Positions 3,032-27,209 of a DNA stretch of 32,769 nt are shown here, in pieces. This DNA is from Candidatus Zhuqueibacterota bacterium (GTDB taxonomy: Bacteria > Zhuqueibacterota > Zhuqueibacteria > Residuimicrobiales > Oceaniaggregativiventaceae): positions 1 through 32,769 of the forward strand of contig WJMF01000012.1 of assembly GCA_014728085.1 (NCBI GenBank), in the 5' to 3' direction. The number at the start of each line of letters is the position of its first letter. Within the stretch, counting starts at the first letter, position 1. Position numbers and translations under genes: made by a program. The notes beneath the pieces are model-generated. The model had not been told where the DNA came from. It was given only the letters and a program-made list of their open reading frames with translations, and did no database searches.

Positions 3032-3203
3032 GTTAGTGATATTGATTTCATGAAAGCCATGATCCCCCACCACTCGATTGCTATTTTTACCAGTGAACGA
3101 GGAAAAAATACGGGATTATCGGGTTCAGGAACTCGCTGAAGAGATAATTAAAGGGCAACGCAGAGAAAACAAGGAAAAAACCAATACAGAGATTGTATTT
3201 TGA
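3032..3203 (+). pseudogene. DUF305-family protein remnant, frameshifted
   Basis: One frame reads DIDFMKAMIPHHSIAIFTSER and, after a single-base shift, a second frame reads KIRDYRVQELAEEIIKGQRR. Joined, they match the typical DUF305 core (a methionine/histidine-rich FMxxMIPHH segment followed by a helix with LAxEII). DUF305 proteins are usually exported ferritin-like or metal-related proteins of uncertain role. The shift lies in a run of six A at 3103-3108, so one extra A explains it. No signal peptide or upstream half remains. The second frame ends in TGA at 3201-3203, overlapping the start of the phosphopantetheinyl transferase. Confidence 0.7.
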
Positions 3204-3883
3204 CCAGTTTACTTTTTTGTTCATTAGGAGACAAGCTTTCAGATTCATCTTTCAATGAGTATCTGTCTGAATTGTCTCCCCGAGAACGCGAGCATATCCA
3301 AAAATTTCGTCATTGGCAGGATCGTCAGCGTAGTTTGCTGGGTAAACGGATGATCCGGCGGGTTTTAAATTCCTATGGCATCACACATCTGGATTTTCTG
3401 TGCTACGATCAATATGGCCGTCCTTTTCAATCCCAAAAAAGGGGTGTTGATTTTAACATCGCCCATTCCGGCAATTGGGTAGTGTGTGGGGCGACGGATG
3501 GCGGCCGTATTGGGGTGGACGTTGAGGTTATCAAACCCATCGAATTGGATATCGCCAAATATTATTTTGCCGCCGAAGAAGTACGCTATCTCTATCAGCA
3601 AGAGGAGCATGTACGCCCGGAGATTTTTTATCACCTCTGGACGCTCAAAGAAGCCTATATCAAAGCCAAAGGTAATACCTTTCATAATCCGCTGGATCAA
3701 TTTTGGTTCGATATAACAGAGGCGAAAACACCCCGATTTCACCTGAAAAATCAGACCGATCCGCATTCATGGTCTTTTCGGTCTTTGTTCCTCGACGATC
3801 ACCATATTTTTTCTGTCTGTCTTCCCGGGCATGATCCTGTAAATGAACCTGAAATCATCCGGGATATTACTGCGTTGAACTGA
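3200..3883 (+). CDS. Sfp-type 4'-phosphopantetheinyl transferase
   Basis: The enzyme moves the phosphopantetheine arm of coenzyme A onto the serine of carrier proteins. Its 227 residues fit the Sfp/Gsp class. Visible motifs are the GRPF block followed by FNIAHSGNWVV (about 85-95), the metal-binding GVDVE (105-109), and WTLKEAYIKAKG (147-158) with the catalytic Glu-Lys. The only start in frame after the upstream stop is TTG 3200, with a weak ribosome site, and it overlaps the stop of the DUF305 remnant. It converges on the NRPS-PKS operon whose last gene ends at 4163. It is therefore the likely activator of the five carrier domains there (three PCP in two NRPS genes plus one ACP counted with the fourth PCP-type site in the PKS-NRPS line). 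A separate role in fatty-acid synthase activation cannot be excluded. Confidence 0.92.
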   Translation: MTSLLFCSLGDKLSDSSFNEYLSELSPREREHIQKFRHWQDRQRSLLGKRMIRRVLNSYGITHLDFLCYDQYGRPFQSQKRGVDFNIAHSGNWVVCGATDGGRIGVDVEVIKPIELDIAKYYFAAEEVRYLYQQEEHVRPEIFYHLWTLKEAYIKAKGNTFHNPLDQFWFDITEAKTPRFHLKNQTDPHSWSFRSLFLDDHHIFSVCLPGHDPVNEPEIIRDITALN

Positions 3884-8632: not shown

Positions 8633-11600
8633 CTAAATTCTCCAAAAATATTTTTGCCTCTTCTTCAGACAGGTTTTCAAGCGTATCCAGAATCGTTTCG
8701 GGCAACCCTTTTGCATTGAGTTTGATGGTTAAAACCGCATCACATAACTCTGCTGGGGTAGGATTTGCCAGTACCCGATCCACAGGCAAATCGATATCAT
8801 AGAGTGACGAAATACGTGCGTTCAGCTGCGCAGCCGCCAAAGAGTTACCTCCCAATTCAAAAAAATTGTCTGTCATGCCAACCAGCTCCACTCCCAACAG
8901 CTCTTTGAATAGCTGCACGATATCTCGTTCAAGATCGGTTTGCGGCGGCACCAGATCCGGCTGTGCCTGACGGGTAGACGATTCCTGATCTTTACGGCGG
9001 GACGCCATGTCGGCCAAAATGGTATTGAGGTCGGGATGCCGGTGACTGACTATTACCTGATACGGGAGCCTGGCGGAAAAAAGCCTTGGGAGAAGCGTTG
9101 TCAGCTCATTTTCTCGCATTATACTTTTACGGTTTCCCGGCCATGCATCAACATGACACTTTTCGGAGAGATCCAGGCCGGGAAAATGTATACAGAATAC
9201 TTTTGTGCCCCGGGCTGCCAGTTGATCTGCCACTGCATCCATTGCTGCATTTGCGGCGATATAGGCAGCCATGCCGAATCCACCAAGAAAAACCGAAAGC
9301 GACGAAATGAAAATCATAAACTCCGGATTCCGGCCATAGTCGAGGGCGGCCAAGCCTTTTGCCCCCTCCAGTTTGGGTGTTTGATGTTGTTGAATATTTC
9401 TCCTGTCGACATGTTCAATGGCTTTCATGGTCGTCATGTCGGTTAGACCCGCTGCATGAATAACCCCGTGGATGTGGCCCAGCCCGGTACTGGATTCCCG
9501 GACCACTTTATTCATTTCGGTTTCATCCTCGACAAATGCCTGAAAGGTGAGGATTGTAGAGCCATGCTGTTGTTCGAGCATTTCGAGTTTTTTAATGATT
9601 TTTGTGGTCCGGCTGTCCGGATTCTCCAATACCCAATGCCGCCATTCCTCCCGTTTCGGAAATGGCTCGCTGCGCGTCAATATTAGGTTGGCTTTATATG
9701 TCCTTGCAAGATACTCAGCCAGAAATAGTCCCAATTTGCCGAGGCCGCCGGTGATCAAAATGGTACTTTCTTGCCGGAAGAGGGGGGAGGCAGCCTGTTT
9801 CCCGAAGACAAGGGGTGCGATCTCGCGACTCCAGATTTTTTTCCCTCGTAAAGCGAGTATTGTGTTTCTATCTGCATGTTGAAAAATCTTCGAGAGTGCC
9901 GAGTCATGCAATGCAAAAGAGTCAGGGAGGTCTACAAAAGTGAAAGCGAGCTCGGGATATTCATAGGGCATTGCCATAAGAACCCCCGTCAGCATGGAGG
10001 CATCGGCATTGATTTTTTCATTACCCATGACGTTAAAGCATAGTCTGCAGACAGCGATCATACGGCCATGCCGATGTTCGTGTTTGCAAAGATTACGGAG
10101 CAGCCTGATTGCGTAGATCATATAATTGTCGTTTTTTTTTTTGTTCCCGGCACTCCAGCCATAGACCACCGTAACAGAGTTAGACAGCCGGGGCGATAAT
10201 GCGGTAAATAATTCTGCGAAATCCTTTTCCTGCTCGGGATCGATGTGAAACGTCTCTTCGTGCCGCGACCAGGCGCCCTGTAATACGGTGACCGGTTCAT
10301 ACCCGTTTTCTCTGCATCCTTTGGAGAGAGGAGCACCGGGGAGATCAAAGATCAAAACCAGAGAAGGTTGAATAAACCGATCCTGCATCAAATATTCCCG
10401 CCAGACAGGCGTATAGAGCCGGACTCTGTTTTCAACCGGCGTTTTCGTTGTTTGCTGTTTTACCGGTTCTTTCCAGCACCGATGTTCTTCGAACGCATAT
10501 CCTGGTGTCGAAATAGACAGCCCCCGGGAACCATTGATGCGCGACCACTCTATTTCCACACCTCTTTGCCACAATTGTCCGATAGTGTTATGAAATGTTG
10601 GATCCCCTGAGTTGAATTTTGCAGGCAAGCATTGCAGCGTGGTATACGCGTCTGATGGCCCCAGCGTATTTTGTATGAATGAAGACAATGACGATCCGGG
10701 GCCGCACTCGACAAACAAAAGGTGCTCATTTGCCAAATGAGTGCGAACGGATTCTATGGTTTTTTGAAAATTGACGAACTTTATCGTCTGGGATGTCCAG
10801 TAACCGGCATTTGAAATGTGTTCGGCGTCCGCGATTCCTTTTACTACTCCCGAGGCAAATGGTATTACAGGCACTTGAAAAGCAATCTGTGAAAGAAAGC
10901 TTTTATAGTCGGATTCAATTTCTGCAATATGTGATGTGTGAAAGGCCTTGTCGGTATGAATAGAGATCGATGCTGTCTTGTTTGCTTTCAGCCAACGCGC
11001 AAAGGCCCGTATCTCACCCGATTGCCCTCCCACCACCGTAGCCTGGGGAGAATTGATGGTTGCGATTTGAATAGAGTGTTCACCTTTTGCATATTCGAAT
11101 AACAAGTTCCGTACCCGTTGTTCGGATTCCATGACCAGGTGCAACCTGCTTTCGGGAAGATTTTCCAGCAGCCGGCCTCTTTGCATGAGCATGGCAAGGG
11201 CCTGTTCACAGGAGAAAACGTCTGCAATCGAGGCCGCGGCATACTCGCCGACGCTGTGCCCGCATACCACGTCCGGCAATATGCCAAGATCGAGCAACAA
11301 GCGGGCAATGGCCTGCTGCGTTATGAACAGCAGGATTTGCACGGTTGCGGCGTTTCGGGACAGGTCAAAGTCCTGATTGAGCAAAAAATCCCGAACATCG
11401 AGATTGTGTTGATCCTGAAGGATATACAGACACCGGTCGACCTCGTTTTTGAACGCAGAAAACTGCCCGTATAATTCCTTGCACATACCCGCATACTGGC
11501 TACCCTGTCCGGGAAAAATAAAGACAATTTTATAATTATTTGACGCTTCAATGATCTTTTGTTTTGTTGAGAGTGCTTGAGCGGCATTCGACATCGAGTC

Positions 11601-13109
11601 GTTGACGATAAATGAGCGTTTGTCAAATTGACATCTGAATTCGCCCATGGTTTGTGCATAATCATCGATCGAGTCGAGGCCGGCCTCCGCAAACCGCGAA
11701 TGCTTTTCCATCTGATTTTGCAGAGATTTTTCAGATTTGGCGGTAAACGGAATCAGATAAAAACGTCGTTTCAGCTCGTCGCCTGCGTTTTGACGATTCG
11801 GGGGCTCCTCCAGAATCATATGTGCGTTCGTCCCTCCGATACCAAACGAACTGACTGCAGCGCAGGTGGCTGTATCATGATTTTTTAACACTGATGGAGT
11901 AGTGTTGAATGAAAACGGAGTGCTTTCCATACCGATTTCAGGATTTGGTTTATTAAAATGGAGCGTCGGTGGAATCTCTTTGTGATAGAGCACCAGTGCA
12001 GCTTTGATGAGCCCGGCGACACCGGCTGCTGCATTGAGGTGTCCCATATTCGACTTTATCGATCCCAATATGATTTCATTCCCCTTCGAAAGAGCTGTTT
12101 GATAGGTTTGTTGCAACGCCGAAAATTCAATCGGATCACCGAGGTGTGTTCCGGTCCCGTGAGTTTCAATATAGCGAACCTGATCAGGATGCGTCTCCGA
12201 GACCATCAGAGCTTCATCGATGACGCGTATTTGCCCATCGATACCCGGAGCCGTAAAACCAACTTTGCCCGAACCGTCATTTCCGGTTGCCGAGCCTCTG
12301 ATAATCGCATAAATATGGTTCTGGTCATGCATCGCCTCTGTGAGCCGTTTCAGCACGACAATTCCACAACCGTTTCCTGGCACGGTGCCGTTGGCATCGG
12401 CATCGAAAGGTCTGCATCGTCCGTCCGGAGAAAAAATCATACCCTCATGGGCCAGGTATCCTGCTTTGGCGGGTATATAAAACGAAGAGCCTCCTGCAAG
12501 GGCGATATCACATTCTCCGTTGAGCAGACTCTGGCAGGCGTAATGCACAGCTACAAGCGATGTTGAACAAGCAGTCTGAATATTGACCGCAGGACCCTTT
12601 AGATTCAGACGATAGGCGGTGTTGGTGACCATAAATTCTTTTTCATTGGTAAAAAGAATTTGAAACAATTCAGCCGCAGATCGATCAGAATAATGGGAAC
12701 GTAAATTCCGGTAGAGATACATGTTGAATCCGGCTCCTGCAAAGACCCCGACATGGCCATTATCCTTTTCAGGGTGAATACACGCATCTTCGAGGGCATG
12801 CCAGGCGCATTGCAAAAAAATGCGACTCTGTATATCAGTGGTTTCGGCTTCGATGCGAGTCATATCGAAAAAAGGATAATCAAAATAATCTATACCCCGG
12901 ACGATTGCGCCGGCGGGGACATATTTGGGATCATTGATTACCTCTTTGGAGAGGCCTGAATGCAAAAGCTCTTCTTCCGAAAAACGATGAATGGATTCCC
13001 TGCCTGTTTTCAGATTTTGCCATAATTGTCTGTGATCATCTGCGTCCGGAAAACGAAGCGCTATGCCGGTGATGGCGATTTTGTTGTCAAGATTATCGAT
13101 TTTTTGCAC
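8613..13109 (-). CDS. Type I polyketide synthase module, KS-AT-KR-ACP
   Basis: The ketosynthase (about 10-435) has the active Cys in QTACSTSLVAVH and the two His in HGTGTHLGD and SNMGHLNAA. The acyltransferase (about 540-830) has FPGQGSQYAGM and GHSVGEYAAA, and AFH in KAFHTSHI, which points to malonyl-CoA. The ketoreductase (about 1105-1290) has GGLGKLG, SSLS and YIAAN with the Lys in QTPKLEGA, so it looks active; LTD at the LDD position hints at B-type. The acyl carrier protein (about 1385-1455) has LGGNSLAAAQ. There is no dehydratase, enoylreductase, methyltransferase or thioesterase, so one beta-hydroxy two-carbon extension is predicted. The start is GTG at 13109 with GAGGA six bases upstream, overlapping the upstream NRPS by 17 bases. 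Confidence 0.94.
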   Translation of the reverse strand: MQKIDNLDNKIAITGIALRFPDADDHRQLWQNLKTGRESIHRFSEEELLHSGLSKEVINDPKYVPAGAIVRGIDYFDYPFFDMTRIEAETTDIQSRIFLQCAWHALEDACIHPEKDNGHVGVFAGAGFNMYLYRNLRSHYSDRSAAELFQILFTNEKEFMVTNTAYRLNLKGPAVNIQTACSTSLVAVHYACQSLLNGECDIALAGGSSFYIPAKAGYLAHEGMIFSPDGRCRPFDADANGTVPGNGCGIVVLKRLTEAMHDQNHIYAIIRGSATGNDGSGKVGFTAPGIDGQIRVIDEALMVSETHPDQVRYIETHGTGTHLGDPIEFSALQQTYQTALSKGNEIILGSIKSNMGHLNAAAGVAGLIKAALVLYHKEIPPTLHFNKPNPEIGMESTPFSFNTTPSVLKNHDTATCAAVSSFGIGGTNAHMILEEPPNRQNAGDELKRRFYLIPFTAKSEKSLQNQMEKHSRFAEAGLDSIDDYAQTMGEFRCQFDKRSFIVNDSMSNAAQALSTKQKIIEASNNYKIVFIFPGQGSQYAGMCKELYGQFSAFKNEVDRCLYILQDQHNLDVRDFLLNQDFDLSRNAATVQILLFITQQAIARLLLDLGILPDVVCGHSVGEYAAASIADVFSCEQALAMLMQRGRLLENLPESRLHLVMESEQRVRNLLFEYAKGEHSIQIATINSPQATVVGGQSGEIRAFARWLKANKTASISIHTDKAFHTSHIAEIESDYKSFLSQIAFQVPVIPFASGVVKGIADAEHISNAGYWTSQTIKFVNFQKTIESVRTHLANEHLLFVECGPGSSLSSFIQNTLGPSDAYTTLQCLPAKFNSGDPTFHNTIGQLWQRGVEIEWSRINGSRGLSISTPGYAFEEHRCWKEPVKQQTTKTPVENRVRLYTPVWREYLMQDRFIQPSLVLIFDLPGAPLSKGCRENGYEPVTVLQGAWSRHEETFHIDPEQEKDFAELFTALSPRLSNSVTVVYGWSAGNKKKNDNYMIYAIRLLRNLCKHEHRHGRMIAVCRLCFNVMGNEKINADASMLTGVLMAMPYEYPELAFTFVDLPDSFALHDSALSKIFQHADRNTILALRGKKIWSREIAPLVFGKQAASPLFRQESTILITGGLGKLGLFLAEYLARTYKANLILTRSEPFPKREEWRHWVLENPDSRTTKIIKKLEMLEQQHGSTILTFQAFVEDETEMNKVVRESSTGLGHIHGVIHAAGLTDMTTMKAIEHVDRRNIQQHQTPKLEGAKGLAALDYGRNPEFMIFISSLSVFLGGFGMAAYIAANAAMDAVADQLAARGTKVFCIHFPGLDLSEKCHVDAWPGNRKSIMRENELTTLLPRLFSARLPYQVIVSHRHPDLNTILADMASRRKDQESSTRQAQPDLVPPQTDLERDIVQLFKELLGVELVGMTDNFFELGGNSLAAAQLNARISSLYDIDLPVDRVLANPTPAELCDAVLTIKLNAKGLPETILDTLENLSEEEAKIFLENLDDRSLE

Positions 13110-16100
13110 TATATATCCTCGCTCTGCTTTGTAATCGTTTTTGACGTTGATTGGTTTTTATGGCGGTTCTTGATCGGCCTGCTCTCTTGTTATCCGGTTG
13201 CTCTGTTGGTGTCTGAGCGATGATTTCGTCTATTTTTCTTGCCATTTCCCGAATGGTTACAAATTGAAACAGATCTGCTATTTCGAGTTTGATATCGAAT
13301 GCTTTGCACAATTTGTTCTGAAGCGCAACGATTAAAAGCGAGTTGCCACCCATCTCGAAAAAGCTTGTGTCTGGATCAATATCATAGCTCTGCAGGGTTT
13401 CTTCCCAGATTTTTAAAATTCGGCATGCTGTTTCCGACAATTCCTGTTTTTTCTTTTTGTTTACGGATTTTGAAACCGGTTCCGGTAAAGCCCGGAAATT
13501 GATCTTGCCGTTCATGTTGAGGGGGACTTTGTCGATTTGGATGAAACGGTTGGGAATGACGCCGTCATATATATATTTTCGCAATTCAGTTCGAATCAAA
13601 ATCGGATCGATTTCAGAGTCAGCGACATAATAGCAAAGAATTTCCTGATGTAACTCCTGCTGTCTGATGGTAATCACAGCATCCTTTACAAGTCCCGACT
13701 GCAGCAATACCTGGCGGATTTCATCCGGTTCTATTCTGATCCCCCTGATCTTGACTTGCTTATCCAGACGTCCTCTGAAATAAAGGTTGCCATCTTCTCC
13801 CCACATTGCCAGGTCTCCGGTTCGATAGAGTTTTTCCCCTTTCCGGAATGGGTGAGGAATAAACCGTTTGGCTGTTTCCCGGGGATCATTGATGTAACCC
13901 AAAGAGACCTGATCGCCACCGACAAAAATTTCACCAACGACCCCCACCGGCTTTTTACACAAATGCTCGTCCAAAATCAGGATTTCGTTATTCCACAGAG
14001 GTTGCCCGAGGGGAATTTCCCTGATTTCCGGTTTCCGGCAAACAGGATAACAGGTTACGCCCATGGTAGTTTCCGCAGGGCCGTACGCATTAATATATCT
14101 GCAACCGTATTTGGCCAGTGTGCCGTCATCTGCCAGGGCGGGTTCTCCTCCGCTAATAATGTTTTTAATACTTGCAATCCTCTCAAAGCCCAGCAGTTTG
14201 ATCAATGACGGGGTAAAAAAAGCAATGGTGATGCCTTTTGATTTGATGAACCGGAGCAGCCGGTCAGGATCATGCTTGATCGAATTATTTGCAATAACCA
14301 GCGTAATGCCGAAGAGCAGAGGAAAGACAATTTCCATGATGGCTGCATCGAATGATAATGCCGTATGGTGCAAGAATTTATCTTTGTTTCCCAGGCTGAG
14401 GATTTCTTTTAGTGCATTGCAAAAAGAGTACATGTTTCGATGGGTAATCATGATCCCCTTGGGCCGGCCGCTGGTGCCGGAGGTGAAAAGAATAAAAGCC
14501 TTGTCAGTCGGATTGACGGGCACATAGTGAGTGGCCGGGGATAGCGCATCCGAGGTTTCGATATCCAAAATCGTGACTGTTGCTGCAAGAAATTTCAAGC
14601 TCTCTATGCAAGTGCTGTTTGTAATCACTATTTTGCACCCGCTTTGCAAAAGCATGTGCCTGATGCGCTCTTGAGGCAATGCCGGATCGATGGGTAGCAT
14701 GGCATATCCTGCATCCAGAATTCCCCACAGCGAGACGACGAAATCTACCGAGCGTGGCAGAAAAACGCCAATAACCTCACTTCGATCAACGATGGATGAA
14801 AGAGCACCTTTTATGCGTTTTACCCTGTCATCGAGCACGGCATAGGTTATGAGTTTCTCATCTTCTTGAACGGCGATTCGGTCTGGGGTGGCTTCAACCT
14901 GATTTCTGAACGCAGTGGCAAGCGCGGAAGAGAGATCGAAAGGTTTATGACGGTATGCAAGGCCCTTCAGGATATCCAGTTCGTTTTCAGGGATCATTTC
15001 AAGCTCACAAATTCGCTCGTTCGGATGGCTGGTGGCGCTTTTGATAAGCCGCAACAATTGACCGGTCAATCTCTCCATCCTCGATTCATTAAAAATCGAT
15101 TTGTTGTATTCGAGGATACATTTTAGATATTGACGGCTCTCTATAAACACAAGAGAAAGATCGACACGGCTTTTGTCGATGAGGAGGTCGATCTGCTCCG
15201 GATATGCATTTCCAAAGCTGATTCCGGCCAAAAGGGGCCGATGATGCGATATCAGAATATCGGTTATCGGATTATGGCTGAGATCGTGTTTTTTGACACA
15301 ATCGGCAACCAACTGATCAAACGGATAAGCCTTGTTCTTGAGATCGTTCGCCAGGGTATCGAATACATTTTTTGCAAAACCGATAAAGGACTGCTGTGGA
15401 TCGATCGTGTCGGTTGAAATTATGGTGTTGATATAAAGGCCGGGTTGGTTTTCCAATTCGGTTCGGTTTCGTCCTTCGGTGGGGATGCCCACGGTGATTT
15501 GCCGGTCATCTGTAAGTTTATGCACGATGATTTTAACAATGGCCAGCAATAGTGAAAAGAGGGTGAGGCCGTTTTCTCCGGCAAGTGTGGTCAGAGCGTG
15601 ATACTGCGGGGTTTCGATCTCGAATATCTTTTGTTTGCCGTCGAACCGTTTCACCCGGGGACGAGGCCTGTCTGCCGGTAAATGATTTCGGGGCAGTCCT
15701 TTGGCGAGTTTGTTTTTCCAGTATAATTTTTGTTTCGGCGGAATGAGTTCTTTATGTTTGGCGACCTGCCATAGGCAGGTGTCGTGGTACTGAAGTACCG
15801 GCGGGGCGGGCCGGAACTGTTTGTCTTTTAGCAGATGTTCGTAATAACTTGCCAGAATGTCCATAATTCGCCTGATGCCCCAGCCATCTGCGATGATGTG
15901 ATGGATATTGACAAAAATATAGCATCTGTTCTTGAATGTAGAGGATTCAAAGCGTATTATTTTGAGCAGCGGACCCTGATCGAGGGCGAATGGCTTTCTG
16001 CTTTGGTGCGTGGAATATTTTAAGATAAAATTATGTGCATCGACTTTATCGGGTATGTTGACCCGTTGTATATAGCTTTGTATTGAAATGGATTCAGGCG

Positions 16101-19100
16101 GCAATATTTTTTGAAATGGTTGATTCTTTTTTGTGACAAAAATTGTTCGCAGAATATCATAGTTTTTTATGAGTAAAAAAAGCGCGCGAGAAAACAATTC
16201 CGTATCGAAAGAACCGGTAATTTTTAAACATGTCGGCATATTGTAGACATAATTGCCTGGATCGAGCTGTTGCATGAACCATATCATGCGCTGTGCACCT
16301 GACAATGGATACAATGTCGCGCCGTCGGTATCGAATTCGATATATGACGTGGTATCCATTTTCCCGAGGTCGTGCCGGACGGAGAGGCGTTTGTTTGTTT
16401 TTATCGAGTCGATGTGTTGCGATATCTCTCTGATTGTCGGGTTTTGGAACAAAATGTTGACGCTGAGCTCGATGTCGAACTGGTCATTGATGCGATTGAT
16501 CACCTGAATGGCCGATAAACTATGACCGCCGCATTCGAAAAAGTTGTTTTCTACGGAAACGGAGTCGATTTTGAGGATTTCGCACCATATCGTGTGGACA
16601 TTGTGTTCGATTCCGGATTGCGGTGGTTCGATAGCGGCTGCATCCATACCATGCTTAAAGGGATCAGGTAACCGTTTTTTGTCGATTTTATTGCTGGGGG
16701 TCAACGGAAAGGTTTCGACCAAACAGAGCCTCGATGGAATCATATACGCTGGCAACCTCTCCCGTAGCCATGCCCGTATTTGAGTAGCTTTAATATCGTG
16801 GTCTGACTGGATATAGCCCACCAATTCCGGCATTTCTCCGGCGCGGCTGACAGAGGTTATGCAGACATTTTCTATCTGACGGTGTTCTGCCAGGACCGTT
16901 TCGATTTCTTTCGGCTCCACCCGAAATCCGCGAATCTTGAGCTGCTGATCTTTCCGACCAATGAACATGAGCGAGTCATTTTCCAACCGTTTTACCATAT
17001 CACCGGTACGGTAGAGCATCTGACCCGATTGAAAGGGAGATTTAATAAAAGCTTTTGCGCTCTCCGCTTCATTCAAGTAACCGATGGCCACATGGGGGCC
17101 GCCGACATAGAGCTCGCCGGGAATGCCATTCGGGACCAGTTGCATGTCATGATCGAGAATATACAGAGCTGTTCCTGGCAGAGCTTTGCCTATTGACGGG
17201 TTTGTAAATTTATGGCATTTTTCCGGGGGTATGATTTCCTGAGTGACCACATGCGTTTCCGTGGGACCGTATTGGTTCATTATTGTGCATCCGGTTTTTT
17301 GAGCCAAAAGGTTGAGATCAGGAGTTATATGCATCGCTTCTCCTGCCTGTATTATGTACCGGAGATGACTGTCATGCAGAAGAGGATTATCGGTGGTGAG
17401 CAGTTTGAGGGCGGTGAAGGGCATAAAAAGGATTTCGATCTTCTGATCAATGATAAATTTTGATAACCATGCAAAATCCAGTCGTTTTGATTTGGGGAAA
17501 CAATAAAGGGTGCCCGCTGATGCCAGCGAAAAGAGCATTTCCTGTAAGGATACATCAAAGCCGATGGGTGCGTATTGCAGAATTTTCTTTCTGGCTTGGA
17601 TTACAGACATTTGAAAGGTGATTAGATTATGCAAACATCCATGGGTCTGGATGACTCCTTTGGGCTCGCCAGTGGAACCGGAAGTGAAGAGGATGTACGA
17701 GGGAGCCCTTTGATAAAGGGAAAATCGGGGCGTACATTCAGCCTCGGGTTTGATTTGTGCGATATCAATTATGGTGGTTTGCGGTAATGCTCTTTTCAGG
17801 GTTTGTACAGGGCTCCCCGCAGAGAGGATCGTTTTACACCGGCTTTTATGCAGCAGCGTTTGAACGCGCTGCACAGGGGTTTCAGGATCGATGGGCATCA
17901 CGATTTTATTGCTCATGAGAATTCCGAGCAGAGCAGAAATATAATAAAACCCGCTATGGCAAAGCAGAGCCACGGGCTCGTGTTCTTTTTTACGATTTTG
18001 CAGCAACGTTTTGACAACGCCGGCGGCCAAGGATACGGTTTGAAAAAATGTGTATGAGCCGCTGTTATCTTTTATGGCTTGGCGTTCGGGATGGGCCTGA
18101 AAGGTGTGAATAATTGAATTCAAATAATCTGTTTCTGTGGAGAGGGCTGAAACCGGAGCAGAATCTGCTAAAATCCGTTGTTTCTCCTTGTCGCTTACAA
18201 TTGAGAAGCTTGAAATCGTACGCTCGTGTGCAAGAGGCAGAACCATCTGTTTCAGCAGGTTTTTATAGTGTTCACAGAGTCGATTAATGGTGCGCTGTTG
18301 AAAATGTGATTGGTTGAATTCAATAAAGCCGCCAAGAGATGTATTCGTCTGTACCAGCGTAAAATTGAGTAGATAAATTTGAGCAACACGATCGATCTGA
18401 ACAGGCGAAAGCAGGGTGTCGTTGACCCGGGATTTTGAGATTTCCCCTGCGACCGATATGTCTGCGCCTTTTATCCGCTGAAAGGAAAACAGGGTGTTAT
18501 ATAATCCTTCCTGCGTTCTTTGAGCATCCAGAACCAGTTTTCTCATTTCCAGGACAGGAAGGGCTTTGTGAGCAAGGCACTCCTGCCAGGTAGTGTCGAG
18601 GCGCCTGACAAATTCGGACAACCGTTCTTCGCCGGAAGGTGCCAGCTTTAGCGGAATTGTATTGAGCATGCAACTGAGAACCTTGAAATCTTTTTTGCTG
18701 GTTCGCATGGAAACCGGAATAGCGGTGGTGAATGGTTGGTGGTTGCCGTATTTGTACAACAGAATCTTAAACACCGCAAGGAATAGTACAAACGGTGTTA
18801 CACCATACTCTTTTGCTCTCTCCCTGACACTGTGCGCCAGCCAGTCCGGCAACGAAAATGGTATTCGCCCCCGAAAACCGGCGGTGTTGTTATTGACAAG
18901 ATGGTCTTGGGGTAAGACAGGAAGATTCAGAGTTCCATTCAGGTGTTGACTCCAGAAACGGGTCAAATTGTGGCGCTTGTTTCGCAGCCTCTCAGCCATT
19001 TCAAAGTGTAAGGATCCTAAATAAGCCAGGCTGGCATGGGGGGGCGGATTTGCCTCCTGCAATTCCGGCATTTTTAACAGATCAATAAACTCGCTGATGT

Positions 19101-19659
19101 ATCGTTGAGCTGAATAGAGATCAAGGAGAATATGATGACAACTTAATAACAGATAATACTCTTGTTTTTCCGTTATAAATACGCGTGTTCGAAATCTCAA
19201 ATCTTTTTCAAGGTCAAAAGGTTGATTGGCTTCCTGGTTCAAACACTCGGACAGATCCCGCTGCCTGCACCGGATCGTTTTAAAATCCGGCTTCTGGTCG
19301 TCTAGTATCCGCCCAATGAATCGGTTTTCTTTTTTTTCGATGCGCGTACGGAGAATTGCATAGCTTGTCAAATGAGCTGCACATTGCTGAATATGAGCAA
19401 GATCGGGTTTGATCTTGAAACGGTAGGCTCTGGAGAGAAGACAAGAGCCGGGACTGTTTTTATTCAGAAACCAAAACAGTTCCTGGTATGGTGACAGAGC
19501 GTAAACATGATTACGTTGGTCGGCTATGGTTTCTTGCTTCATTGCTGCGTTTGCTTCCATAGACATTTTTACGTGATTGTTTTTAAGATGATGCTTTGTA
19601 TACGAATCTATTACCGTTGGCTGGTGGCCGTATCGGGTATTATGCAAATTTAATGCCAT
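13093..19659 (-). CDS. Dimodular nonribosomal peptide synthetase, C-A-PCP-C-A-PCP (first gene of the assembly line)
   Basis: Over 2188 residues: C1 (about 50-490, HHILLDLYS near 172), A1 (520-1000, FTSGSTGEPKGV, NQYGPTETHV, LKIRGFRVEPKEIE), PCP1 (CGGHSLSAIQ near 1040), C2 (1110-1545, HHIIADGWG near 1250), A2 (1570-2050, FTSGTSGRPKGI, NAYGPAETTMG) and PCP2 (MGGNSLLIVA near 2101). A basic tail of about 30 residues, rich in Arg and Lys, ends the protein and may be a docking segment to the PKS. Pocket residues read by eye are D-V-Q-F-I-A-Q-V-V for A1, close to published proline codes, and D-A-M-F-I-G-A-M-G for A2, aliphatic-looking. Beginning with a C domain means the first residue is probably N-acylated or that an upstream partner exists elsewhere. 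ATG 19659 follows GGGGG by four bases. Confidence 0.93.
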   Translation of the reverse strand: MALNLHNTRYGHQPTVIDSYTKHHLKNNHVKMSMEANAAMKQETIADQRNHVYALSPYQELFWFLNKNSPGSCLLSRAYRFKIKPDLAHIQQCAAHLTSYAILRTRIEKKENRFIGRILDDQKPDFKTIRCRQRDLSECLNQEANQPFDLEKDLRFRTRVFITEKQEYYLLLSCHHILLDLYSAQRYISEFIDLLKMPELQEANPPPHASLAYLGSLHFEMAERLRNKRHNLTRFWSQHLNGTLNLPVLPQDHLVNNNTAGFRGRIPFSLPDWLAHSVRERAKEYGVTPFVLFLAVFKILLYKYGNHQPFTTAIPVSMRTSKKDFKVLSCMLNTIPLKLAPSGEERLSEFVRRLDTTWQECLAHKALPVLEMRKLVLDAQRTQEGLYNTLFSFQRIKGADISVAGEISKSRVNDTLLSPVQIDRVAQIYLLNFTLVQTNTSLGGFIEFNQSHFQQRTINRLCEHYKNLLKQMVLPLAHERTISSFSIVSDKEKQRILADSAPVSALSTETDYLNSIIHTFQAHPERQAIKDNSGSYTFFQTVSLAAGVVKTLLQNRKKEHEPVALLCHSGFYYISALLGILMSNKIVMPIDPETPVQRVQTLLHKSRCKTILSAGSPVQTLKRALPQTTIIDIAQIKPEAECTPRFSLYQRAPSYILFTSGSTGEPKGVIQTHGCLHNLITFQMSVIQARKKILQYAPIGFDVSLQEMLFSLASAGTLYCFPKSKRLDFAWLSKFIIDQKIEILFMPFTALKLLTTDNPLLHDSHLRYIIQAGEAMHITPDLNLLAQKTGCTIMNQYGPTETHVVTQEIIPPEKCHKFTNPSIGKALPGTALYILDHDMQLVPNGIPGELYVGGPHVAIGYLNEAESAKAFIKSPFQSGQMLYRTGDMVKRLENDSLMFIGRKDQQLKIRGFRVEPKEIETVLAEHRQIENVCITSVSRAGEMPELVGYIQSDHDIKATQIRAWLRERLPAYMIPSRLCLVETFPLTPSNKIDKKRLPDPFKHGMDAAAIEPPQSGIEHNVHTIWCEILKIDSVSVENNFFECGGHSLSAIQVINRINDQFDIELSVNILFQNPTIREISQHIDSIKTNKRLSVRHDLGKMDTTSYIEFDTDGATLYPLSGAQRMIWFMQQLDPGNYVYNMPTCLKITGSFDTELFSRALFLLIKNYDILRTIFVTKKNQPFQKILPPESISIQSYIQRVNIPDKVDAHNFILKYSTHQSRKPFALDQGPLLKIIRFESSTFKNRCYIFVNIHHIIADGWGIRRIMDILASYYEHLLKDKQFRPAPPVLQYHDTCLWQVAKHKELIPPKQKLYWKNKLAKGLPRNHLPADRPRPRVKRFDGKQKIFEIETPQYHALTTLAGENGLTLFSLLLAIVKIIVHKLTDDRQITVGIPTEGRNRTELENQPGLYINTIISTDTIDPQQSFIGFAKNVFDTLANDLKNKAYPFDQLVADCVKKHDLSHNPITDILISHHRPLLAGISFGNAYPEQIDLLIDKSRVDLSLVFIESRQYLKCILEYNKSIFNESRMERLTGQLLRLIKSATSHPNERICELEMIPENELDILKGLAYRHKPFDLSSALATAFRNQVEATPDRIAVQEDEKLITYAVLDDRVKRIKGALSSIVDRSEVIGVFLPRSVDFVVSLWGILDAGYAMLPIDPALPQERIRHMLLQSGCKIVITNSTCIESLKFLAATVTILDIETSDALSPATHYVPVNPTDKAFILFTSGTSGRPKGIMITHRNMYSFCNALKEILSLGNKDKFLHHTALSFDAAIMEIVFPLLFGITLVIANNSIKHDPDRLLRFIKSKGITIAFFTPSLIKLLGFERIASIKNIISGGEPALADDGTLAKYGCRYINAYGPAETTMGVTCYPVCRKPEIREIPLGQPLWNNEILILDEHLCKKPVGVVGEIFVGGDQVSLGYINDPRETAKRFIPHPFRKGEKLYRTGDLAMWGEDGNLYFRGRLDKQVKIRGIRIEPDEIRQVLLQSGLVKDAVITIRQQELHQEILCYYVADSEIDPILIRTELRKYIYDGVIPNRFIQIDKVPLNMNGKINFRALPEPVSKSVNKKKKQELSETACRILKIWEETLQSYDIDPDTSFFEMGGNSLLIVALQNKLCKAFDIKLEIADLFQFVTIREMARKIDEIIAQTPTEQPDNKRAGRSRTAIKTNQRQKRLQSRARIYSAKNR

Positions 19660-21764: not shown

Positions 21765-22545
21765 TTATCCCGTTTTGGCCCACATATCCGATCTCCATTT
21801 TGGCACCGAGGATAAGTTTGTTGCCGAAACACTTGTACATGACATCAACGAGTCAGCTCCTGATCTTGTAATCCTGAGCGGCGATCTTACGCAGCGCGCA
21901 CGAAAGGGGCAATTTAAAAAAGCAAAGACTCTGCTTGATGCTATCGAGCCTCCCGTGGTTGTTATTCCCGGCAACCATGACATTCCGCTGTTTAACCTGA
22001 TGGCTCGTTTTCTTTTTCCCTACAGGAATTATGAAAAGTATATCTCGAATGAGGAATATCCAATTTACCAATCAGAGCATCTGGCAATTGCGGGGGTGGA
22101 TACGTGTTCACCTTTTCGTCACCAGAGCGGCAAAATAAAGCAGGAAGATATTGATTATCTTGTAAATTTTTTCTCCGCTAGCGGCGAAGAGGTGATAAAG
22201 GGTGTGGTTATTCATCATAATCTTTTTCCCTACAAGGGGATGAAATCGGGAAGCGCACTCAAGGGGGCCGATTTTTTTCTTCACGAGATGAACCGCTGCG
22301 GCGTTGATCTGGTATTCGCCGGTCACCTTCACCGCTCTTTCGTCTCGACTTTCAGTCAACCCGAGGTGAATAATCATCTTATCGTGCTGCAGGCCGGCAC
22401 TGCCATATCCAAACGACTGCGTAAAGAGGAGAATTATATGCTAATCATAAAACCAGCCAGAGACGATATTGCTGTAGAGTTTAGAACCTTTAAAGCCGGC
22501 AAGTTTCGTTTACGGCGGCAGCAGATATATAGTCGCAAGGTTTAG
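21757..22545 (+). CDS. Calcineurin-like metallophosphoesterase
   Basis: All metal-site blocks of the family are present in order over 262 residues: SDLHFG (11-16), SGDLTQRA (41-48), GNHDIP (72-77), the His pair in VIHHNLFP (153-154) and AGHLHRSF (188-195). This arrangement fits the CpdA-like branch, which hydrolyses phosphodiesters or phosphomonoesters with two metal ions. No signal peptide or membrane segment is seen, so it is probably cytoplasmic. It overlaps the lipid kinase gene and is presumably translationally coupled to it, which suggests a lipid-phosphate or related nucleotide substrate rather than cAMP. That last step is inference. Confidence 0.9.
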   Translation: MNDYPVLAHISDLHFGTEDKFVAETLVHDINESAPDLVILSGDLTQRARKGQFKKAKTLLDAIEPPVVVIPGNHDIPLFNLMARFLFPYRNYEKYISNEEYPIYQSEHLAIAGVDTCSPFRHQSGKIKQEDIDYLVNFFSASGEEVIKGVVIHHNLFPYKGMKSGSALKGADFFLHEMNRCGVDLVFAGHLHRSFVSTFSQPEVNNHLIVLQAGTAISKRLRKEENYMLIIKPARDDIAVEFRTFKAGKFRLRRQQIYSRKV

Positions 22546-22617
22546 GATGAAGCGATGAGCGGGCAGGGGGGCTACAAATAAGTTGCTTTTGGCATTTTAC
22601 AGGTCGTGTGGAATACC

Positions 22618-22796
22618 GGGGTCGGACCGGCGTCTGTTGTTCAAAAACAACAGCTTAAGTGCTAAAAACGGTGAAAAACCGCTCTTAGAGCCCCTTTTTT
22701 GGCCCTGAAAAGACTATTTAAAGAAAAACTCTCTTACAAACACCGTTTTCATTTTAACCGGAAATGCCGGGAGCAAAAAATTAGAGCAAAAAATTA
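22618..22796 (+). repeat. Dispersed repeat, copy R2
   Basis: Begins GGGGTCGGACC, then has a locally different stretch up to AACAACAGCTTAAGTGCT. It rejoins the family at CCGCTCTTAGAGCCCC, TTTTTTGGCCCTGAAAAG, CTCTCTTACAAACACCG and GGAAATGCCGGGAGC. The CTTTTTTGGCCCTGAAAAG part can fold and, lying after the phosphoesterase, might end transcription. Confidence 0.8.
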
Positions 22797-22797
22797 G

Positions 22798-23161
22798 GGG
22801 TCGGACCAAATTATCTCATTTATTAACAGCATGATAGCCGCAAAAAAACCTGAAAAACAAGCCTTAGAATGCATAAAATGCACTAAAATCGCATTCTAAG
22901 GGGAGATTAGATATCACGAACGAACCACTATAGTATATTTTGAACCCAACATGACAGATTGTGAACCGGTGTCATCAATCATCCGGTACTTTGGTTCTTA
23001 TTAATCTGTTCAGGATAATTCGTCCGAATGGGGGATTTAGTTCAATGCATTTTTATTTCTTATAAACCTTTTTTGAACCAAAAAATGCATTTTAAGGGCT
23101 GTTTTTGATGAAAAATTTATCCTAATCAAAATATTAACATCAATTTAATTTGGTCCGACCC
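22798..23161. mobile_element. MITE-like element with 16-base terminal inverted repeats
   Basis: GGGTCGGACCAAATTA at 22798-22813 is repeated exactly in inverse at 23146-23161. The arms also resemble each other further in: AAAAACAAGCCTTAGAATGC near 22853 against an inverted GCATTTTAAGGGCTGTTTTT near 23088. Inside the left half, CCTTAGAATGC (22862-22872) pairs perfectly with GCATTCTAAGG (22891-22901). No ORF of any size is contained. Its ends share the GGGGTCGGACC start of the R repeats. Its right end stops the IS256-type transposase remnant, which suggests insertion into that gene. Confidence 0.65.
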
Positions 23162-23572
23162 TCTATTACCAATGCTTCAGGAAAATCCTGAGTGGAAATA
23201 CCTTTCAGATAGAGTACCGGGATAAGATTATCAATGCTCGGGACGCGTCGTAAATATTTTGGTAAAATGTCGCTTTGAAATTTTATGTCCGGATAGCGTT
23301 TTTGTAACTTTCGATCGTCAACACGGGGTTGTTTAATTTTAATCGGCACCATGCCCGTCATGATCGAACGTTCTTTATGATGGCCATTCCGGACTGCCAG
23401 GCGGTACCCTTGTTTATTTCGTTTTGATGACATATTTTCAAAAGTCGTCAATTTCTGCTTCCAAGGCTATTGCAAGAAGTTTACGAGCACCGTCATGAAT
23501 AATTTCTTCTAAAACGGTTTTTGAATCAGTTTTTGCTTGACTGGAAGTAAATTGTGAATTATCTTTTGACAT
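23161..23572 (-). pseudogene. IS256 (Mutator)-family transposase, N-terminal remnant
   Basis: From ATG 23572, preceded by AGGAGGA, the minus strand reads MSKDNSQFTSS and on to ALEAEIDDF. After a one-base shift at a TTTT run near 23441 it continues ENMSSKRNKQGYRLAVRNGH, then KIKQPRVDD, DILPKYLRRVPSIDNLIPVL, YLKGISTQDFPEAL. This is the characteristic N-terminal half of IS256-family transposases (YRNGH, P-R-V-D, LPxYLRR, LYLKGIST). The reading ends at the MITE-like element, and the catalytic DDE half is missing. Frameshift plus truncation make it inactive. Confidence 0.85.
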
Positions 23573-23694
23573 AAGGCGTATCCTCCTATGATTTGAGTGA
23601 TTCGTGGTGGAACTTGCTCAAGTCAAAGGATACGCTTTTTTTATTTATTTGTCAATCCACAACATTTGAATATAACTCCGTTGAAAAAATCCAA

Positions 23695-23743
23695 AGTGTA
23701 CCACCCACTAACAATAAAGTGCCCACCGATAAAGTGGTACACT
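23695..23743. repeat. Perfect 10-base inverted repeat, possible IS end
   Basis: AGTGTACCAC at 23695-23704 is matched by GTGGTACACT at 23734-23743. Between and after them GCCCAC, GCCCGC and CTGGTACAG recur. Such repeated GTGGTACA/GCCCAC blocks look like the multi-repeat ends of IS21-type elements, but no transposase is attached. It could equally be an operator upstream of the ATPase gene that starts at 23854. Confidence 0.4.
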
Positions 23744-23853
23744 GTCAACTGCCCGCGACTGGTACAGTTTAAAGCGCCCCATGACAGTACGTGTAAAAAA
23801 GTACTTGCAATTACCATAAATTGTGAGTACACTCCAAAAATAAAGGTAAATAG

Positions 23854-25080
23854 TTGGAGTCTAATCCATTGCGAGAGAATTTTAAAAATACATATTTCCG
23901 GCTACTCAAAAACACAACTTTCAATACGCACCGGTATTTATTCGATTCGTTTACTATCGACAGCCGCTTAACAGGTTTGGTAGGTCCTCGCGGTACCGGC
24001 AAGACAACTCTGCTTCTCCAATTTATTAACGAGCGAATTGAAAATAAGCGGCAGTGCATTTATTTATCCCTGGATAATATTTATTTCACCCAGATCACAT
24101 TACTGGATTTTGTAAATGAACTGTACGAAATAGATGGTATTCGCTATTTTTTTCTGGATGAGGTGCACAAGTATTCAAATTGGAATCAAGAGCTAAAGAA
24201 TATTTATGATTCTTACCCGGACGTAACCGTTGTTTTTTCAGGTAGTTCGAGCATGGATTTGATGCGCGGCACCTATGATCTTTCAAGGAGGGGTACGCTA
24301 TTCAGAATTGGCGGCATGTCTTTTCGAGAATATCTTGACTTTAAGTTGGGGATGACAATATCTGCTGTCAGCTTTGACGACCTCATTCATAATCCAGAAC
24401 ACATGGTCGATCAATTATCAGCGATCGATAGATTACGGGGACATTTTCTCGAGTATCTCGATACTGGTTACTATCCCTTTGTTTTGGACGATGAGGTGAA
24501 TTACCATCAAAAATTACTGAACGTTATAGATAAAACGATTTATGAGGATATTTCCAATTTTTATAATCTCAAGACGGAAAATTTAGTCAATTTCCGAAAG
24601 ATACTTTCGTTCATGTCAACGATTCCACCGGGGCAGCTAAATCGAAACAGCATTTCAAAACATATCGGCCTGGATAATAAAACGGTAGAAAACTATTTAA
24701 ACATTTTGCATGAAACGGGGCTTGTCTGTCTTATTCGCGAAAACAAGGCTGGTAGCCGTTTGCTAAAGGGAACTGAAAAGATATATCTGGACAATTCTAA
24801 TATTTACAAGGCCATTGTTGATGAAATTGGTTTTGAGTACAATAAGGGGACGGTAAGGGAAATATTTTTTGTAAAAATGCTGCAAAACGCGAATGAAAAG
24901 GTTTATTTTAGTAGAACAGGTGACTTTGAGGTACAAGATTATTACTTTGAAATAGGAGGGAGGGGCAAATCGGTAAGGCAGATAAAGGATCATTTGGACA
25001 AATCCTTTGTTGTGAAAGACGATATTTTATATCCCGGCAAGCATGAAATTCCATTGCATCTGTTTGGTTTCCTTTATTAA
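23854..25080 (+). CDS. AAA-type ATPase of the AAA_14/DUF4143 kind
   Basis: The 408-residue protein has a Walker A motif GPRGTGKTT (44-52), a Walker B motif RYFFLDEVHKY (97-107) and a sensor-like VVFSGSSSMDL. The C-terminal part contains a winged-helix-like ISKHIGLDNKTVENYLNIL and the DUF4143-type run ending in YFEIGGRGK. Such ATPases are widespread, variably present and of unclear role; a nuclease-like C-terminal fold has been proposed for relatives. The start is TTG 23854, directly after an in-frame TAG, with AAAGG upstream; a second TTG at 23869 is possible. Its base composition is more AT-rich than the NRPS region, and it is surrounded by element ends, so horizontal arrival is likely. Confidence 0.85.
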   Translation: MESNPLRENFKNTYFRLLKNTTFNTHRYLFDSFTIDSRLTGLVGPRGTGKTTLLLQFINERIENKRQCIYLSLDNIYFTQITLLDFVNELYEIDGIRYFFLDEVHKYSNWNQELKNIYDSYPDVTVVFSGSSSMDLMRGTYDLSRRGTLFRIGGMSFREYLDFKLGMTISAVSFDDLIHNPEHMVDQLSAIDRLRGHFLEYLDTGYYPFVLDDEVNYHQKLLNVIDKTIYEDISNFYNLKTENLVNFRKILSFMSTIPPGQLNRNSISKHIGLDNKTVENYLNILHETGLVCLIRENKAGSRLLKGTEKIYLDNSNIYKAIVDEIGFEYNKGTVREIFFVKMLQNANEKVYFSRTGDFEVQDYYFEIGGRGKSVRQIKDHLDKSFVVKDDILYPGKHEIPLHLFGFLY

Positions 25081-25116: not shown

Positions 25117-25310
25117 GGGGTCGTACCAAGAAATATTACTGAAAATCAATAAATCAGGCGCTGAAAATAGCGAAATACCGCTCTTGGAGCCTCTTTTTTT
25201 GGCCCTAAAAAGACCTTTTTAAATAAAACTCTTTTACAAACGCCGTTTTCATCCTAAACGGAAATGCCGGAAGCAAAGAATTGCATCTCTTTGCGTCATT
25301 ATTCATTATG
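25117..25310 (+). repeat. Dispersed repeat, copy R3 (full length)
   Basis: Starts GGGGTCGTACC (one change from the consensus) and ends TTGCGTCATTATTCATTATG. It contains CCGTTT-(7 bases)-AAACGG at 25243-25261, a perfect small hairpin, and the common CTCTTGGAGCCTC and TTTTTTTGGCCCTAAAAAG blocks. Together with R5 (26927) it heads a duplicated segment that includes the peroxiredoxin start. Confidence 0.85.
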
Positions 25311-25403
25311 AAAAATAGTTCTAACCGATCCGAGCGGGCGAAAATTAAGCACAAAGATCCAGGAGGAGAAGAAAAAAATAATAACATGATTCTGGTTACT
25401 GTA

Positions 25404-26129: not shown

Positions 26130-26240
26130 GAGATCGGACTTGTGTTGCAAAAATCAATAACTCAAGTGCAAAAATATAAAAAATCGCTCCTGGAGCCTCT
26201 TTTTGGCCTTGAAAAGCGCCTTTCAGGAAAAAGAAATCTC
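26130..26240 (+). repeat. Dispersed repeat, copy R4 (degenerate)
   Basis: Matches the family at AAAATCAATAACTCAAGTGC, TCGCTCCTGGAGCCTC and TTTTTGGCCTTGAAAAGCG. The GGGGTCGGACC start is eroded to GAGATCGGACT and the right part is lost. It follows the selenoprotein gene by about 15 bases, and its TTTTTGGCC hairpin may act as a terminator. Confidence 0.65.
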
Positions 26241-26269: not shown

Positions 26270-26554
26270 CTAGGCGAGGGGCTTTTTTGAATGATGTACA
26301 GCGAGAATGGCGATTGTGTTGGTCTCGATATCTATCTTATAGACGATTCTATATTGACCTTTAACGAGTTCTCGAATGTTTTCGTCGGAAAATTCAGGAA
26401 CGATTCTGCCGAGTCGTGGGAAATCACTCAGATTTTGAATGGAACGTTTGATTTCAATGGCCCATTTTTTTGCCGCTTTTGGCTTGTCCCTTGAAATATA
26501 TTTTACTGTATTGACTACATCATTTTGGGCACTGTTTGAAAAGAAGATGTTCAT
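26270..26554 (-). CDS. RelE/ParE-superfamily toxin
   Basis: The 94-residue protein (MNIFFSNSAQNDVVNTVKYI) shows the ParE pattern. It has a helix pair with KPKAAKKWAIEIKRSIQNL, then FPRLGRIVPEF and IRELVKGQYRIVYKID, ending in the short strand IAILAVHHSKKPL. The combination LxxFPxxGRxVPE and RELxxxxYRIVYxI is typical of the family, whose members attack gyrase or the ribosome. I prefer ATG 26554; a TTG at 26569 overlapping the antitoxin stop would add five residues. The antitoxin gene lies immediately upstream and shares its promoter. Confidence 0.88.
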   Translation of the reverse strand: MNIFFSNSAQNDVVNTVKYISRDKPKAAKKWAIEIKRSIQNLSDFPRLGRIVPEFSDENIRELVKGQYRIVYKIDIETNTIAILAVHHSKKPLA

Positions 26555-26565
26555 ATTTCCATAGA

Positions 26566-26841
26566 TCAATTGATAATTTGATCGATTTCACTAAAAACAG
26601 TCTCAGCTGGTACTATGCGTCCCTCGCGATAATCTTCAAGACCGAGAGCGACTTTTCGCATAAATTCAATCTGATCCTGCATTTCCTGATATTTTTCCGC
26701 GTCCATGATGACGGCAGCACTCTTGCCGTGTTGCGTCAAGATGATTGGTTTTTTATGAACCCTGATTTCGTTAAGGTATTTTTTTATGTTGTTGCGGAAA
26801 TCAGTCAAAGGAGTGATATTTCGAATGTCAATACTGCACAT
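26566..26841 (-). CDS. Phd/YefM-family antitoxin
   Basis: This 91-residue protein begins MCSIDIRNITPLTDFRNNIK and continues KKPIILTQHGKSAAVIMDAEKY. That is the standard N-terminal DNA-binding fold of Phd/YefM antitoxins (TPLTDFR...PIxLTxxGKxxAVxxDxxxY). The C-terminal part (REGRIVPAETVFSEIDQII) would wrap the toxin. ATG 26841 has GGAGG five bases upstream. It precedes the ParE-type toxin and ends within a few bases of its start, so the two form a coupled operon, expected to repress its own promoter. Confidence 0.9.
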   Translation of the reverse strand: MCSIDIRNITPLTDFRNNIKKYLNEIRVHKKPIILTQHGKSAAVIMDAEKYQEMQDQIEFMRKVALGLEDYREGRIVPAETVFSEIDQIIN

Positions 26842-26926: not shown

Positions 26927-27119
26927 GGGGTCGGACCAAGAAATGTTACTGAAAATCAATAGTTTAGGTGCTGAAAATAGTGAAAATTCTCTCTTAAAGC
27001 CTCTTTTTTGGCCCTAAAAAGACTATTTTAAGAAAAACTCTCTTACAAACGCCGTTTTTATCCCAAATGGAAATGCAAGGAGGAAAAAATTAGATCTCTT
27101 TGCGTCATTATTCATTATG
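26927..27119 (+). repeat. Dispersed repeat, copy R5 (full length)
   Basis: Begins GGGGTCGGACCAAGAAATG, identical over this stretch to R1, and ends TTGCGTCATTATTCATTATG like R3. It carries CTCTTAAAGCCTC, TTTTTTGGCCCTAAAAAG and the CCGTTT/AAATGG hairpin, where one pair has become G-U instead of G-C, so pairing is kept. Confidence 0.85.
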
Positions 27120-27209
27120 AACAACAATTCAATCCGGCCCGATCAGGGGAGAAACGCAGCAAACCGCAAAGATCGCAAAGAAGATGAAGAAAAATGATAC
27201 TATTCCTCT

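Follow-up and report, generated by a model that had tools for sequence, protein, structure and literature searches.

A gene-less 364-bp element in Candidatus Zhuqueibacterota, very probably a non-autonomous derivative of a TIRtron-like transposon

Contig WJMF01000012.1 of the Candidatus Zhuqueibacterota assembly GCA_014728085.1, analysed here over its entire length of 32,769 nucleotides (the window), carries a gene-less element of 364 bp at 22798-23161 (+). This element is very probably a non-autonomous derivative of a TIRtron-like transposon, with ends that are recognised by a Y1 (HUH) transposase of the REP-associated type. Sequence comparison offers four grounds for this explanation: homology of both ends in their proper order, ends of the same kind that bracket transposase genes, no target duplications, and many inward-facing pairs of ends. 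Against it count a home assembly in which no cognate transposase was found, a weak excess of the terminal core in some genomes free of the transposase clade, eight of 69 transposase loci that are coreless, a full-length relative that is itself shortened, and a complex junction. Other genes of the window include a 4'-phosphopantetheinyl transferase (3200-3883, +) and three very large genes of 1489, 1498 and 2188 aa (4163-19659, -), which by reading are putative NRPS/PKS genes.

The element is bounded by perfect 16-bp inverted repeats (22798-22813 and 23146-23161) which enclose a spacer of 332 nt, and the ORF list of the window holds no ORF of at least 80 aa wholly within it. As single-stranded DNA it folds at -49.9 kcal/mol, compared with -32.1 ± 4.75 for shuffled sequences, none of 100 of which equalled it, the inverted ends themselves supplying part of this stability. 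The length, perfect ends, folding and absence of a gene given in a preliminary description are all confirmed by repeat, fold and ORF analysis, and the MITE-like character proposed there is supported. The terminal 11-mer GGGGTCGGACC, described as common to the element and to the repeats R1, R2 and R5, is whole at the left end only; on the right a T comes after the 10-mer. With up to one mismatch, GGGTCGGACC occurs seven times in the window versus a mean of 1.15 and a maximum of 4 in shuffles.

The left end module (22798-22902, +) is composed of the core GGGTCGGACC and about 95 nt more, and is 79% identical to the upstream end of G001:C41 (L172), a 1-kb element with a Y1 (HUH) tyrosine transposase gene in a genome of the same family. 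For the right end module (23057-23161, -) the identity is 70% with the downstream end of G001:C41 and 72% with that of G008:C193. These values are ungapped over 105 nt; the crossed pairings (left with downstream, right with upstream) are only 49-56% identical. Within the left end, the inner 95 nt reach an identity of 0.768 with G001:C41, compared with 0.303 ± 0.045 (maximum 0.463) for shuffles. The G001:C41 transposase gene is itself shortened (a 186-aa frame), and there is one core mismatch at the ends of that element. Since both ends match those of a gene-bearing element, and in the right order, the 364-bp element reads as an internal-deletion derivative of a transposase-bearing transposon, with both ends kept and the gene lost. 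A full-length element would supply the Y1 (HUH) tyrosine transposase of REP-associated type; the enzyme would recognise an end module of about 100 nt, with the GGGTCGGACC core at its outer edge and subterminal boxes, and would move whatever stands between two inverted modules. We infer that mobilisation takes place in trans and by a single-strand mechanism.

Two structural features were also considered. A subterminal hairpin is not claimed as a general feature of the family: at transposase-bearing loci, RNAalifold with arm-swap controls revealed no covariation in 61 ends on the upstream side and 65-66 on the downstream side. The hairpin is clear only among some G008 ends (at least 13 of 14 pairs in 13 of 50; 0.4% in shuffles, 11.5% in the arm-swap control), and the signal is weak in G001 (2 of 29 ends) and in the home genome (2 of 18). 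IS608 possesses guide pairing between flank and interior. Comparable pairing is not claimed here, the 48 scans having produced a few z values near 4, uncorrected across scans, versus 95% maxima of about 3.2-3.5.

The home assembly comprises 5.19 Mb and is 97.87% complete. It contains 17 exact copies of the 11-mer versus 2 of the reversed pattern, and 26 of the 10-mer versus 14; the latter excess is modest, so that some single sites are due to chance. Inward pairs of exact 10-mer cores less than 400 bp apart number five: the 364-bp element and those on contigs C88 (296 bp), C134 (226 bp), C137 (237 bp) and C155 (226 bp). Further paired ends, for which a genome search had been suggested, are thus present. 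The home-genome ends are alike over about 100 nt beyond the core, and a sequence model of 36 ends, with which 150 of 2594 first-look candidates were scored, identified at least 37 places in this genome at E ≤0.1, of which 18 had served for training and 19 were new to the model. Several of the new matches complete inward pairs (C83 twice, C137, C27, C112), some with weak partners (E up to 0.05). Among the listed places in seven genomes, 24 of 38 core pairs less than 500 bp apart point inward (binomial p 7.5e-7 against 0.25), compared with 2 that point outward and 12 with both cores in one orientation. Inverted repeats around a non-coding 332-nt spacer could also denote an invertible segment, that is, a promoter switch flipped by a recombinase. 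However, members of the family are scattered over many unrelated sites, whether as single ends, as ends in tandem or as elements with a gene, and the home-genome copies have no long inner sequence in common; we find this reading scarcely credible.

The R repeats of the window, all on the forward strand, are incomplete members of the same kind. R1 (2886-2990), R2 (22619-22796) and R5 (approximately 26928-27145) open with the 11-mer, at 2885, 22618 and 26927 respectively, and R3 (approximately 25118-25336) opens with it at 25118 with one mismatch in the core. R1 is a left end module only. R2 combines a left end module with some of the body of a different member; it matches R5 up to its own position 168, its right part being absent where the 364-bp element starts. 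R3 and R5 have a left end and a decayed right end, which in R5 aligns with the right ends of the C155 and C137 elements and in R3 chiefly with that of C155. The four repeats score 64-79 bits with the end model (all were in its training set) and, judged by their sequence, belong to the end family of the 364-bp element. A further end-module fragment at 26150-26223 (+), outside the training set, matches model positions 25-100 with 26.6 bits. The proposal that one transposase acts on both the element and the R repeats holds as a statement about the family, which has in common an end module of about 100 nt extending beyond the 11-mer. The two are, however, different subtypes with ends 46-56% identical. 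The transposase class (Y1/HUH) had not been identified in the preliminary description. Just ahead of R5 lies a gene pair for a ParE-like toxin and a Phd/YefM-like antitoxin (26270-26841, -).

The last 36 or so codons of an S1-domain ORF (1797-2993) consist of R1, so that the C-terminus of this ORF apparently derives from an old end fragment. Whatever their origin, the copies might now act as RNA structures or terminators at gene ends, a role that the position of R1 at the end of this ORF and the good folding of the 364-bp element would suit. We consider it unlikely: the copies are truncated and decayed, and the region 22300-24100 gives no Rfam match at E ≤1.

The transposase was reached through the ends. 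A Y1_Tnp gene lies within each of two long core pairs, one in G063 and one in G001. Core counts versus those of the reversed-pattern control are 37 and 5 in G001, 64 and 4 in G008, 12 and 0 in G063, 10 and 3 in G018, 9 and 1 in G002, and 4 and 0 in G003. At least one core site, often a single one, is present in 48 of 119 genomes, and a mild excess is also seen in genomes with no match to the clade (e.g. G015, 4 versus 0; G110, 7 versus 2; G007, 4 versus 1). When the G001 protein was compared with the 119 genomes, six matches exceeded 190 bits (query included), all in G001, G008 and G063, the next reaching at most 83 bits. Five of these six close relatives have cores on both sides (one core mismatched) and one has a core on one side; at 27 distant RAYT loci there is no exact core, and a core with a mismatch at three. 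The NCBIfam model for REP-associated tyrosine transposases scores 67.8-86 bits in five proteins, two of which lie above its cut-off of 80.

Since two of the six close relatives had been found via core pairs, the independent test is a search of named genomes by protein only. This retained 80 of 569 relatives, judged by record title mostly from Deltaproteobacteria/Desulfobacterales and Gammaproteobacteria, but also from Nitrospirota, Aminicenantes and others; 69 had enough flanking sequence. Inverted GGGTC[A/G]GACC cores are present on both sides of the gene at 54 of the 69 (upstream 57, downstream 58, neither 8), the upstream core lying mostly 107-138 bp ahead of the matched start. The reversed pattern is found on both sides at none of these loci, upstream at two and downstream at one. 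At least two of the 80 loci (L190, L228) match proteins in the query alignment, without which the core counts fall by at most two on each side, and a few loci share one genome. At four Gammaproteobacterial loci (L202, L227, L232, L244) flank and core form one palindrome of the CGCGCGGGTCAGACCCGCG type, nearer to a REP than the others. In the phylum of the window the clade occurs in three of 82 genomes, which are the three that built the profile, and among viral contigs there is one partial relative. A relic of a clade transposase (55 residues with a stop, 53% identical) is located at G003:C295 9055-9219, in a genome of the same family that still has core sites.

The transposase-bearing elements of other genomes supply the autonomous counterpart with the same ends that the preliminary description called for; none was found in the home genome. 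Because no cognate clade transposase was found in the home assembly at its 97.87% completeness, the 364-bp element is probably immobile now. The home genome has three Y1_Tnp genes, of which only that on C189 matches the clade proteins. The 364-bp element might be a REP pair (REPIN/BIME) of this resident RAYT. Yet the C189 protein is just 27-30% identical to the clade; its gene stands, by eye, amid other palindromes (GTGCGTCGCACC), with no GGGTCGGACC within the locus read; and the ends lack a GTAG head. A relationship of this kind is very improbable, and the C189 RAYT (L032, G000:C189, 1000-2551), with its dense GTGCGTCGCACC-type palindromes, apparently represents a classic REP system separate from the family of the 364-bp element.

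The right end of the element adjoins an IS256 remnant (23162-23678, -; Pfam Transposase_mut), which covers residues 1-135 of 423 in two frames, with DNA similarity over 23180-23678. The reference is an intact copy on C131 (423 residues from the first Met). Residues 1-45 and 52-135 are retained in different frames, ending at the 364-bp element, and residues 136-423 have no convincing match within the window. A second transposase gene of the window (DDE_Tnp_1/DUF4372) lies at 155-1324 (-). The perfect inverted ends and the adjoining IS256 fragment would also suit a MITE that derives from a DDE insertion sequence (IS256 or some other) and is mobilised by cut-and-paste, a process that duplicates the target, for IS256 over about 8-9 bp. 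Against this, none of 37 elements, the 364-bp element included, is flanked by direct repeats of at least 5 bp (two of 39 candidate pairs had been dropped beforehand as coding-like sequence of the home genome), and the gene between the same ends is Y1_Tnp, by which a DDE origin is largely refuted; it is highly improbable, and IS256 is unlikely to have moved the element. For the Y1 class target duplication is not expected, according to the text of PMC2817692.

The intact IS256 copy continues for about 286 residues beyond the junction, which is therefore no natural IS256 end. That the right end of the element coincides with the loss of the IS256 frame, as had been described, is correct in that the frame is cut there, but this is no clean interruption: the left flank is truncated R2 and not the remainder of IS256, so that a deletion or rearrangement is needed as well. 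The junction with R2 and IS256 is unexplained by a single insertion. The simplest history would be insertion into IS256 followed by a deletion from the left edge of the element into R2; alternatives are insertion into R2 with a later change on the right, and recombination between two copies.

Gene-less and gene-bearing elements differ in their outer flanks. In the 37 elements the left flank resembles the reverse-complemented right flank no more than after permutation (97 of 259 positions, permuted 93.1, p 0.29). At 52 transposase-bearing loci (among L190-L269) the same comparison gave 179 of 416 versus 117.6 ± 9.1, a value attained in none of 20,000 permutations, and still 151 of 376 versus 109.1 after five loci (four look-alikes and the strongest match) were dropped. 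Palindromic targets, longer ends or the flank stutter described below could each contribute to this likeness.

Immediately to the left of the 364-bp element a 13-nt sequence stands twice in tandem (22771-22796, +), touching its left end. Such a stutter, defined as a perfect copy, 0-5 nt further out, of the 6-14 nt of flank that end at the core, was found at 61 of 253 ends, compared with a mean of 1% (maximum 2%) elsewhere in these flanks and 0.2% in shuffled flanks, in a test that was designed after examples had been noticed. By group it occurs at 2 of 19 ends in the home genome, 0 of 28 in G001, 15 of 58 in G008, 40 of 131 at the named loci and 4 of 17 elsewhere. Among 39 core sites in loci unconnected with elements there is one, G063:C30, which continues like a true end. 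A second count gave a copy at a gap of 0-5 nt in 51 of 248 ends versus about 2.7 expected. In 38 ends with gaps of 1-5 nt the gap corresponds to the first bases of the element at 73% on average (at least 70% in 23), and in 46 of 76 cases, drawn from 40 loci, flank and element prefix together account fully for the period of 7-31 nt. In longer versions, partial ends with the same flank tag ahead of them stand in tandem (3.83 matches out of 8 versus 2.31 ± 0.14 permuted, over 78 pairs with chance cores included). There is a clear stutter in L200 (Delta proteobacterium NaphS2), a record not labelled as a MAG, which makes assembly error alone unlikely.

We put forward, tentatively, that the stutters are scars of the transposase, left by an abortive cycle of nicking, extension and resealing. 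The enzyme would nick a single strand in the flank, at about 6-14 nt from the core; extension from the resulting 3' end would run through the flank and then for 0 to about 100 nt into the element; and the covalently bound enzyme would reseal the displaced strand. The product would read flank-prefix(N)-flank-element, a tandem copy made without movement of the element. A more ordinary alternative is that replication slipped at the G-run. If the transposase origin is true, the Y1/HUH transposases of this clade begin rolling-circle-like synthesis and often abort it, and they nick outside the conserved core.

Among known systems the closest is the TIRYT/TIRtron of Di Nocera et al. (2013, PMC3733652), in which long inverted repeats, and not REPs, flank a RAYT-like Y1 gene. 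In the text of that paper the TIR families are dispersed, often as dimers or clusters, and a GGGGWSAS motif is common to some but not all TIRs. Here too full-length members have a Y1 gene between the same inverted ends (54 of 69 loci, control 0 of 69), and the end repeats are dispersed and occur in dimers or clusters. The core GGGGTCGG fits GGGGWSAS at seven of eight positions; the GGGGTCAG variant fits the motif yet is rare (GGGTCAGACC 7 times versus 85 for GGGTCGGACC). Other differences from the published text are the Y---NM motif, the distinction of left from right ends along about 100 nt, and the flank stutter, although the sequences in the figures and supplements of Di Nocera et al. may overlap with ours. 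In their text, Quentin et al. (2018, PMC6006769) assign 20 of 26 TIRYTs to TnpAREP subclass 2.1, equivalent to RAYT group 1, and describe Y---NP throughout class 2 and a C-terminal HTH domain in subclass 2.1. The clade described here has the same Y1/HUH core, but its catalytic motif is Y---NM in 74 of 80 loci, whereas 23 of the 27 distant RAYTs have Y---NP. No HTH or DnaA model matched five proteins up to E 10, in a search with filters that lose weak matches.

As with REPINs or BIMEs and their RAYTs, the gene-less copies are inverted pairs of recognition units, which in those systems are thought to be moved in trans by the RAYT (PMC2817692; PMC3116915). The units here measure about 100 nt, in contrast to palindromes of 20-40 nt, and have no GT[AG]G head, the ends beginning with GGGGTCGGACC. 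With IS200/IS605 (IS608) the family has in common the Y1/HUH fold (Pfam Y1_Tnp) and the lack of target duplication; IS200/IS605 elements are without terminal inverted repeats in the text of PMC2817692, whereas the 364-bp element and its relatives have terminal inverted ends. As far as these texts go, the 364-bp element is of a known though little-studied kind (TIRYT/TIRtron) but belongs to a clade with Y---NM. The text of the open-access literature, figures and supplements aside, gave no account of a Y---NM clade with this core, nor of deletion derivatives resolved into left and right ends, nor of the stutter; of the matches listed in a literature search by the core and its variants, none is by its title on these elements.

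How REP-type tyrosine transposases cut, and how their repeats spread, is largely an open question. In the present family, copies with and without the gene, whose left and right ends can be recognised, occur in several phyla. Its flank duplications are frequent and sharply located, and with their help one could test directly where the nick falls and what becomes of the 3' end.
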